A DNA stretch of 64,000 nt from Acinetobacter sp. ANC 4910 (lineage in GTDB: Bacteria; Pseudomonadota; Gammaproteobacteria; Pseudomonadales; Moraxellaceae). Shown here piece by piece: positions 1-2,467 of this stretch. Location: the NCBI RefSeq assembly GCF_004331035.1, contig NZ_SJNT01000002.1:1-64000 (forward strand), in the 5' to 3' direction. How positions within the stretch are numbered: the first letter of the stretch is position 1; each line of letters opens with the position of its first letter. The notes under the pieces are model-generated. The model made no database searches. It was not told the DNA's origin and saw only the letters and a list, made by a program, of their open reading frames with translations. The translations under genes were made by a program, and so were the position numbers.

Positions 1-555
1 TAAAGACTTTATTAAAAAATTTTTATCAGCTCTTTCAGTAATAAACATATCTTGCCAAGATTCTTTATTTAACTTACCAAACTCATTAACTTGGCATTTA
101 TAGACAATGAGATATAAATATATTTTCTCTAAATAGGTTAAATTAAATATATTTTTTTTAAAGAGAAAATTATATTTATCTTCTATGATTGATTCTATTT
201 CACACAAAACTTCTTGTGCTAATTTATCAGTTTCCTTTGCTAAGCATGTATTACATTCAAATAGAGATTTTATTAATTTTTTATAATCATTTCTCAATTT
301 AATTTTAAAAATTCCCCCACAATTTTGACATTTAAAATGATCAGACTCAGATGTAATATAACTATACTTTGAAACCGAGGCTTCTAGTATATGCAAACTT
401 TTAAAACCATATTTTAATAACAGTTCTTTCGTAGAATATTTAAAAGCTGATAATTCTTTATTTAGTTCCCAGTAATCCTGAATAAGTGTTAAATAATTGT
501 TACATTCATCTCCTACATGATATACGGAGAAATCTTTTGTATTCATCAATAACAT
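1..555 (-). CDS. partial zinc-ribbon-like hypothetical protein (C terminus outside window)
   Basis: This AT-rich frame of 185 codons is still open at the left edge, so the protein is longer than seen. The ATG at 555 is chosen because an AAGAAGAG ribosome-binding site ends six bases before it; another ATG lies three codons inside. Residues 76-79 (CQNC) and 101-104 (CNTC) form two CxxC pairs about 21 residues apart, the pattern of a zinc ribbon, and the rest is charged and probably helical. No signal peptide or membrane span is seen. I do not recognise the family. Its base composition and its position beside a broken greB suggest it is cargo of an inserted element, which is inference. Confidence 0.6.
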   Translation of the reverse strand, partial: MLLMNTKDFSVYHVGDECNNYLTLIQDYWELNKELSAFKYSTKELLLKYGFKSLHILEASVSKYSYITSESDHFKCQNCGGIFKIKLRNDYKKLIKSLFECNTCLAKETDKLAQEVLCEIESIIEDKYNFLFKKNIFNLTYLEKIYLYLIVYKCQVNEFGKLNKESWQDMFITERADKNFLIKSL

Positions 556-735
556 TTTTTTCTCTTCTTAAAAAGAACATTCTATTTCAGTGTACTAGTC
601 ATCATAAGATGTGGCATTAAAGTGCTAAATTCATCAATGTAACCCCCTGACAGAGCTGCTACTTTAGCTTACTAATCACTCAATTATCTTGTTTAATGTT
701 TTTTATACACCACTTCACAATAAGATCAAAACAAA

Positions 736-850
736 AAAATAGTACATTAACAATAGTATAAAGAAATAGTTTATATACTAATTATAACTCATTATTTTAT
801 AATAATATAAAATTAAATAGTATGAAAATAAGGGTTATTTAGTATAATCC
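736..850. repeat. TAGTA-type direct repeats at the edge of the element that interrupts greB
   Basis: Five direct copies of a short motif (core TAGT, usually A/T-rich then TAGTA then T or C) begin at 740, 754, 767, 818 and 840. The last lies on the point where greB homology ends. Spaced short direct repeats at a boundary are typical of transposase-binding sites at ends of Tn7-like and related elements. That parallel is inference, since no transposase gene or second end is in the window. The stretch 556-834 otherwise shows no gene. Confidence 0.4.
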
Positions 851-987
851 GCATTTTCACTTCGATCACCAAGGCTAGCAGCCCAGTTCACTTTTTTGGT
901 AATTTCTGGGCGTTCTTCACGCCATAAACGCTGCAATTCGGCCACCAATTTATCGTGTCCAGAACGTGTAATTAAGTTAGATTTCAT
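835..987 (-). pseudogene. greB: greB, 5' fragment only (transcript cleavage factor GreB)
   Basis: Fifty codons from the ATG at 987 encode the start of GreB, including the stretches EERPEITKKV and AASLGDRSENADY that are nearly invariant in the family. Intact GreB is about 160 residues and reactivates backtracked RNA polymerase by promoting transcript cleavage through the tip of its N-terminal coiled coil. Here homology ends after ENADY, then Thr-Lys-stop in AT-rich DNA. The rest of the coiled coil and the whole C-terminal polymerase-binding domain are missing. The join coincides with the TAGTA repeats, so insertion of foreign DNA is the simplest explanation. The intact paralogue greA lies at 40.2 kb and may partly compensate. 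Confidence 0.85.
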
Positions 988-1354: not shown

Positions 1355-2467
1355 ATGCACAGTAGTTCACCTTCTGGGTCGAGGCTTAGCCTTAACTCAT
1401 TAACTTTCTCTCTCCCTTTAAAAGCCTTAGCACTCACCGCAGCCTTAATTCCGTTTCATACAATTAATGCTAGCAAGGCTTACCAATATGACGCTGTTGT
1501 TAATAACAACAAACTCACAGTGGTTGGTGTAGAAAATCCATCGACTGTTTTTAAAGATGGACAGTATTTACATGGCTTTGGTTATGACCTTGCGCGTAAT
1601 TATGCTGACAGTATGAATGTTGAACTGGTGTTTACCACAGTTCCTGATGATGCCACGGCATTAAAATTGGTTGATCAAGGTAAAGTAAACTTTGCCATTA
1701 CTACCTCAAGCATTCAAAAAATTGAAAGTAAAAAACTGACCTCGTTTTCAGCCACCTGTGGTGACTTATATAGCCTACAGAAAAATGGCTTAAATACTCA
1801 ATTGAATTGGGTATTTAAACATGCGGATGACCCTTTGACTCAAACTGCCAGTGGTTTTGTTTGTCAAGGTAAGCAAACGGGTTCAATTAGCCAATTGGCT
1901 TCTTTTTATAATCGTAATGTTGTACAGGCCGAGTCATGGGATTCTATTGAACGTGATCTCACCAAACGTATGCCGATTTATAAAGCCAGTTTCCAGCGTA
2001 CAGCCGAGAAATATGATCTCGATTGGCATTTCTTGGCAGCCATTGGGTATCAGGAATCGTATTTAAAACCCGATTCAATTTCGCCCACAGGCGTACGCGG
2101 TATCATGATGCTGACCAATAGCACAGCCAAAGCGATGGGTGTAAGTAACCGCACCGATCCCGCTCAAAGTATTCAAGGTGGTGCGAAGTATTACGACCTT
2201 ATGCTCAGCAAGTTCGAAGAAGTGCCGTATCCAGATCGTAACTGGTATGCCTTGGTCGCTTATAATATGGGACCAGGTGCCGTAGATCAGATTCAAAAGC
2301 GTATCAGTGCTCAAGGCAAAGATCCGAATAACTGGGTAAACCTATATAGTTATTTAGATGGTCATAAAGCACAAAATGGTCGCTATCGCCAAGCAGTACA
2401 ATATGTCACGCGTATTCGTTCTTACTTGGAATACATCAAAAACACGCCTCAATTGGTGAATATATAA
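1355..2467 (+). CDS. MltF-like lytic murein transglycosylase with solute-binding-like N-terminal domain
   Basis: The protein is 370 residues. A signal peptide or N-terminal anchor (hydrophobic around 20-38) leads into a region resembling a solute-binding family 3 domain (about 50-170). A C-terminal SLT lysozyme-like domain (about 205-350) follows. The catalytic glutamate is Glu234 in GYQES, followed by GIMML and AYNMGPGAV, the usual SLT motifs. Such enzymes cleave the MurNAc-GlcNAc bond of peptidoglycan with formation of a 1,6-anhydro end. E. coli MltF is about 520 residues, so the regulatory N-terminal part is shorter here. The start has GGAGA four bases upstream. The gene stands alone, ending in a strong terminator. 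Confidence 0.85.
   Translation: MHSSSPSGSRLSLNSLTFSLPLKALALTAALIPFHTINASKAYQYDAVVNNNKLTVVGVENPSTVFKDGQYLHGFGYDLARNYADSMNVELVFTTVPDDATALKLVDQGKVNFAITTSSIQKIESKKLTSFSATCGDLYSLQKNGLNTQLNWVFKHADDPLTQTASGFVCQGKQTGSISQLASFYNRNVVQAESWDSIERDLTKRMPIYKASFQRTAEKYDLDWHFLAAIGYQESYLKPDSISPTGVRGIMMLTNSTAKAMGVSNRTDPAQSIQGGAKYYDLMLSKFEEVPYPDRNWYALVAYNMGPGAVDQIQKRISAQGKDPNNWVNLYSYLDGHKAQNGRYRQAVQYVTRIRSYLEYIKNTPQLVNI

Follow-up and report, generated by a model that had tools for sequence, protein, structure and literature searches.

Tn916-type tyrosine-recombinase transposons pass through a circular form and exchange a coupling sequence of about 6 nt between moves. SXT elements in prfC exemplify a class of islands and prophages that restore the gene they enter by supplying one end of it at the junction, and recombinase-in-trio (RIT) elements carry three adjacent recombination genes. 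The Gamma-Mobile-Trio (GMT) islands have already been described (Mahata et al. 2024, Nat Microbiol 9:3268-3283, as cited in PMC12039261); as known here through PMC12039261 and the NCBIfam family names, they hold gmtY, gmtZ and gmtX in one row together with anti-phage cargo. The Acinetobacter locus described here shares both features and differs in belonging to a clade that has greB as its fixed site and a complete greB of its own behind gmtX. Like the Tn916-type elements it exchanges a coupling sequence beside its ends, a likeness in mechanism for which we claim no membership; unlike them it uses one fixed site in a conserved gene, encodes three Gmt proteins and keeps its foreign 6-mer on one side (10 of 10 informative cases). 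As in the SXT-like target rebuilders, the element repairs damage to the gene that it enters, whereas the repair here takes the form of a whole separate greB inside the island, which reads in the opposite direction and can be left behind. RIT elements also have three adjacent recombination genes, whereas the proteins of the present locus match the GMT models.

The window analyzed is a 64,000-nt stretch of Acinetobacter sp. ANC 4910 (NZ_SJNT01000002.1, positions 1 to 64,000). It begins at base 1 of C12, one of the 24 contigs of this genome, so the island body cannot lie inside it. The initial annotation had read 48 codons of greB followed by a break; the break stands, and the native 5′ piece comprises 47 codons (987 down to 847, minus strand), matched by the GreA_GreB_N and GreB models and uninterrupted in relatives such as G011. 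The tyrosine taken as codon 48 is part of a foreign 6-nt coupling sequence (841–846, minus strand; TATACT in the sense of greB) that by chance starts with TAT, and all 12 islands have a variable 6-mer at this position. Next to it is the right end of the island (701–840), with spaced TACTA/TAGTA repeats at 740, 754, 776 and 818. Four such repeats are reached in 3.9% of 5000 Markov resamples, which is weak by count alone; the end and the spacing are conserved in related islands, with repeats at distances of ~18 and ~60 nt from the right end in 11 of 12, ~82 nt in 12 of 12 and ~69 nt in 8 of 12, and these are probably recombinase binding sites. The AT-rich character noted at the join is borne out by a GC content of 0.238 in 1–840 versus 0.407 in 1001–64000. 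The ORF at 1–555 (minus strand), described initially as zinc-ribbon-like, encodes the first 185 residues of a conserved island protein of ~431 residues with two CxxC pairs. Outside the island and beside greB lies a host lytic transglycosylase gene recognized by its SLT domain (1355–2467, plus strand), here called slt, which served as the marker for the locus and, as a single neighboring gene, for the tree discussed below.

A GreB search of the same genome returned four matches, among them the missing 3′ piece of greB (profile positions 46–156; C17:92726–93061), the sole full-length greB of the genome (C17:97849–98307) and a below-cut-off match that is probably greA (C12:40214–40672). The body of the element, expected to the left of the window, is therefore found on contig C17. 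From the greB 3′ piece, the order on C17 is gmtY (436 aa), gmtZ (922 aa), gmtX (207 aa) and, with a 4-nt overlap on gmtX, a complete greB (157 aa). Beyond it lie genes for a 1191-aa helicase and a 628-aa phospholipase-D-type protein, and then the end of a further gene. The first three adjacent genes score over their NCBIfam cut-offs as GmtY (NF040693, 508 bits, cut-off 340), GmtZ (NF047926, 799 bits, cut-off 600) and GmtX (NF040692, 228 bits, cut-off 40), and the fourth of the row likewise scores over its cut-off as GreB. A phage-integrase-type domain is present in GmtY and lies below the domain's cut-off in GmtZ. By its sequence, the element that breaks greB is a GMT island. Defense or offense cargo is typical of GMT islands, and cargo of this kind is present here, since the helicase matches the PADLOC model for MkoA (E 3e-210) and the phospholipase-D-type protein that for MkoB (E 6e-82), which we take to be the components of the Mokosh defense system. 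None of the seven C17 proteins searched is a conjugation protein. The island measures ~12.8 kb, and 11 other Acinetobacter islands measure 10.2–22.8 kb.

An assembly artefact or old decay is out, given the other greB piece and the island body in the same genome and like junctions in 11 other species. Twenty of 175 Acinetobacter genomes have a GmtY over its cut-off, as do 3 of 369 genomes from the class, the present genome being in both sets, and 12 of the 20 Acinetobacter loci lie in greB. All 12 greB islands have greB after gmtX with the same 4-nt overlap and both broken native pieces present; the distance from the greB 3′ piece to gmtY is ~110 nt in 11 of them and 2.3 kb in G098. Empty sites are present as well, as an intact, uninterrupted greB at the same locus in relatives. 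The initial annotation is thus partly supported: it had correctly placed a mobile element within the 5′ part of greB, and it missed the complete greB of the island, which is outside the window.

The last gene of C17 aligns to residues 198–431 of a 431-aa homologue from another island, and the first ORF of the window to residues 7–188 of the same homologue, which places C17 and C12 ~9 codons apart. The C17 portion supplies the last 235 residues (L028:18290–18997). This right-end protein family is present in 12 of 12 Acinetobacter greB islands. Three members gave no Pfam family over cut-off, a sequence search of the PDB gave a best E-value of 0.29, and a fold search with the predicted model (mean pLDDT 82.5) gave no PDB match at E ≤ 0.001. 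A known target selector was rejected on these grounds and by G286, in which the gene adjoins the carried greB, away from the right end. A role in excision or target choice would be a guess.

In all 12 Acinetobacter greB islands the insertion site follows codon 47 of greB. The 3′ piece opens with its own codons 48–49 directly after …TT(A/G)TAA, and the 5′ piece runs to codon 47, followed by 6 variable nt and then by the right end of the island. The target duplication that had been anticipated is absent, with the 6-nt coupling sequence in its place. Four islands whose right ends are 96–99% identical over 100 nt have different 6-mers, equal at 1–4 of 6 positions, which indicates that each move of the island brings an exchange of the 6-mer. 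TATCAA and TACCAA, two of the 12 6-mers, resemble the greB site and the other 10 do not, which suggests that most greB islands last moved from some other site. The foreign 6-mer lies on the 5′ side in 10 of 10 informative islands (two-sided binomial 0.002, assuming equal sides and independent cases).

A related island in Halomonas sp. THAF12 is found in two plasmid records, NZ_CP045401.1 (L315) and NZ_CP045400.1 (L316, L317), where the same greB-carrying island sits outside greB. The record pTHAF12_b is circular (47,894 bp), is typed as non-mobilizable and has no replicon listed. It consists of the 47,888-bp island of pTHAF12_a and six further nucleotides, GGTGTA, a sequence that also flanks the island on its right in pTHAF12_a. 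The record is probably an excised island circle, though it may be a tandem island copy that was assembled as a circle. The THAF12 island carries mercury, copper and cadmium resistance genes. Empty sites in relatives, shared ends in 12 islands and this circle-like record are the marks of a mobile island with defined ends, and the sequence records are consistent with both excision and integration of GMT islands.

In each of the 12 occupied genomes one GreB match lies over the cut-off, and it is the carried copy. The median dN/dS is 0.062 for carried greB (63 pairs), 0.059 for left-behind greB (91 pairs) and 0.052 for native greB (70 pairs), after pairs with dS over 2 or ≤ 0.05 were dropped (3, 161, 140 and 7 saturated pairs in four sets), which indicates that the carried greB is under purifying selection. 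G143 and G015 have a TGA inside the greB match, so not every greB copy need be intact. We rejected recoding of the carried copy against insertion (residue 49, Q to I or H), as native pieces in other genera also have I at this position and as complete islands lie inside already inverted island-type greBs in G150 and G108.

Across Acinetobacter, greB was found at E ≤ 1e-48 in 165 of 173 genomes, one in each except G076, which has two. The eight genomes below this threshold are G020, G026, G030, G032, G063, G066, G094 and G101; five of them are genomes of 2.4–2.8 Mb, at least 99% complete and low in contamination, and these may have lost greB. Native greB and slt are divergently oriented, with a gap of 357–383 nt in 109 of 112 plain divergent genomes. 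The 28 loci read for being inverted, distant, broken or low-scoring comprise 23 with an island-type greB (83–94% identity to the carried copy, 53–60% to the native gene), three with a native-type one (G124, G014 and G048) and two whose stretch contains no greB. A further 94 loci have the ancestral layout; 80 of them were read, and all 80 are native-type (83–99% versus 55–62% identity). A DNA search added 18 native-type loci, which were included in the GreB tree, and 15 left-over genomes gave 11 island-type and 4 native-type loci. Classification thus covers 151 of 173 genomes, the others being the 8 without greB and 14 with ancestral-orientation loci for which position alone was read. Native-type loci account for 105 genomes, occupied ones for 12 and island-type ones without a complete island for 34, a fraction that is not a random sample, as loci were picked by orientation and score before typing, although just 14 greB-bearing genomes were left out. 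Orientation follows type: unoccupied loci in the ancestral orientation are native-type in 105 of 111 cases and island-type in 6 of 111, and 26 of 26 inverted loci are island-type, with two loci unreadable (Fisher 1e-22, treating species as independent, which they are not; G048, G019 and G088 were oriented by tRNA-Ser only).

We considered whether island-type greB is an old native version in some lineages and the source of the islands' copy, the inverted loci having spread by descent and ordinary recombination. This is unlikely as a general account, and it may hold in some lineages and explain where the carried gene came from. It is consistent with G111, G161 and G125, whose island-type greB has 77–78% identity to the carried copy, lies in the ancestral orientation and is without traces of an island, so that island-type greB could be native in some lineages; these three count against the reading that we prefer, set out below. 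G158 also has a traceless island-type greB in the ancestral orientation, one less diverged than those three. Some island-type loci are common to close relatives (G160 and G036; G112 and G008), and 29 of 34 island-type loci show no island traces beyond chance (control of 10 shuffles per locus, slt side only; for 11 of the 29 the sequence covered was ~1.5 kb per side, or less at contig ends), which also counts against the preferred reading. Descent is opposed by the five of 34 loci that retain traces of a lost island or of the old gene. From the tRNA-Ser side toward slt, G134 shows native greB nt 325–491 (E 3e-29), a gmtX scrap, the inverted imported greB and native nt 1–56 (E 2e-13); G019 retains a native 3′ scrap (E 3e-23) and a gmtX scrap, and G113 a short native 3′ scrap (E 6e-7). 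Scraps of gmtX and gmtY in G117, and of gmtX and an island-type greB in G065, look like decayed islands from a second round of invasion. The island type of all 26 inverted loci also argues against descent, since island decay predicts that orientation tracks type.

The trees bear on the same question. In the GreB tree 21 native-type rows form one side of a branch supported at 100/99, and 35 island-type Acinetobacter rows together with two island-borne Ignatzschineriaceae rows are set off by another branch at 100/99. With the 15 left-over loci added, 48 island-type rows remain parted at 100/99 and the native-type rows are not set apart by any single branch. The slt tree (quick search) covers 134 genomes, 24 island-type and 110 native-type, with 10 occupied genomes that have native pieces counted as native-type, and leaves out G019 and the 15 left-over loci. 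On this tree of the neighboring gene the greB allele changed at least 15 times, 12 of the changes being forced by supported branches (shuffled mean 22), which again weighs against an old native version passed on by descent.

The reading that we regard as very probably correct is that a greB-specialized clade of GMT islands breaks greB and supplies its own copy, which can remain after the island decays. It draws on the layout, the fixed site, the one full-length greB per occupied genome, purifying selection and the exchanged 6-mers, and on the island-type, mostly inverted greBs of other species with traces in 5 of 34. A circular form of the island would be inserted after codon 47 by tyrosine-type recombinases through a 6-bp staggered exchange, with the Gmt recombinases predicted to be the cutting proteins; the native 6 nt would stay with the 3′ piece, and the 5′ piece would receive the coupling sequence brought by the island. 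The lost gene would be replaced by the fourth gene of the recombinase operon gmtY-gmtZ-gmtX-greB, so that the cell would keep a GreB, the carried copy being presumably active. Sparing the host is, we infer, the reason that greB is carried; the benefit of a spare is not proven by these data, since the 8 of 173 genomes without greB suggest that the gene may be dispensable, a point against this explanation. As the imported greB reads opposite to the broken one, decay of the island would leave it as the sole greB, inverted and open to new invasion, of which the islands in the inverted greBs of G150 and G108 are examples, and the imported gene seems to outlast the island. The 29 traceless loci would have arisen by the same route of island decay. 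We further consider it likely, with less confidence than the core of this explanation, that the process recurs: invasion would install the element's GreB, decay would leave it inverted and later invasions would flip it back, with 46 of the 151 classified genomes (12 occupied, 34 after loss) relying on an element-borne or element-derived GreB.

The layout extends beyond Acinetobacter. A pattern-based GmtZ scan of one genome per species (84,980 species) gave 34 loci, 10 of which are Acinetobacter islands already in the set; 22 of the other 24 were assessable, L184 (contig ending in gmtX) and L202 (distant GmtZ only) being excluded. In 19 of the 22, greB follows gmtX, in one case behind a second, partial gmtX, and these include loci from Wohlfahrtiimonas, Ignatzschineria, Pseudoalteromonas, Marinobacter, Oceanisphaera, Methylomonas, Zobellella, Vibrio, Photobacterium and Rheinheimera; G491, a fragmented genome from the class search, has greB after gmtX too. 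In the three exceptions (two Marinomonas, one Salinimonas) a full greB lies at another place within or next to the island, and these count against the proposed explanation. The greB 3′ piece adjoins gmtY in 16 of the 22, the contig ends in three, and the piece is absent in three. Two of the last are the Marinomonas loci, in which no gmtY was found and the site is marked by a greB 5′ piece; the third is Methylomonas sp. LW13, whose island lies at a different location. In the Marinomonas loci (L187, L194) an HTH gene occupies the place of gmtY, and greB lies across the recombinase genes, on the other side. The GmtZ proteins of L196, L197, L198 and L199 (Vibrio, Photobacterium) are longer, with an N-terminal stretch repeated several times (tblastn, residues ~20–130). 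Two further islands are beginning to decay with the carried greB intact: in G075 (L122) gmtY is split by ~1.2 kb, and in G028 (L119) the frames of gmtY, gmtZ and gmtX are broken.

That the carried greB might be ordinary cargo, or the island's own helper (e.g. in transcription of a long operon), with the match to the target incidental, is about as doubtful as general descent from an old native gene, or slightly more so. By position it is co-transcribed with the recombinase genes (4-nt overlap), and greB is carried outside greB sites in Methylomonas sp. LW13 and in Halomonas and Pseudomonas plasmid records, as expected of cargo. On the other side, no greB was found in nine GMT loci at other sites, which lie outside this clade, the region downstream of gmtX or gmtZ being visible in seven of them (G005, cut in gmtX, and G086, with no gmtX seen, were excluded), and in the 12 occupied genomes the carried greB is the sole full-length greB. 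It also seems to persist once the remainder of the island has gone. Two GMT islands of another clade, L109 and L110 (in G036 and G033), are without greB and lie directly after a gene that looks like glmS. The site after glmS is the place used by Tn7.

Entry of a Tn7-like (TnsABC/TniQ) transposon into greB, among the possibilities that the initial annotation named for checking, is extremely improbable. The spaced short repeats near the ends and the one fixed site recall Tn7, as a resemblance only. The seven C17 proteins searched include no Tns or TniQ family in Pfam or NCBIfam (~9 codons between the contigs being unseen), the phage-integrase-type domains of GmtY and, below cut-off, GmtZ are found instead, and there is a 6-nt coupling sequence rather than a target duplication.

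The literature search returned no account of greB as an integration site. The main texts of PMC7823893 and PMC5431838 do not contain greB, and in PMC11368177 the string "greB" occurs only in the surname Grebe; a table row of PMC3338528 names an Alteromonas SN2 island "GreB transcriptional factor". Replacement of greB is likewise without an account in the literature searched, and we do not claim that it is unpublished.

The break-and-replace reading of the greB islands has several consequences. Their ends, target and coupling-sequence rules are now open to laboratory tests, and attention is drawn to the gene of the right-end protein, which is conserved among the islands and has no known family. 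By breaking a conserved gene and bringing a spare, a mobile element may be able to land in that gene with little harm to its host. This would give a concrete route for the in-place replacement of core genes by foreign versions, which so far has mostly been inferred from odd gene trees, and, if true, the element would be a recurrent replacement engine for a core transcription factor.
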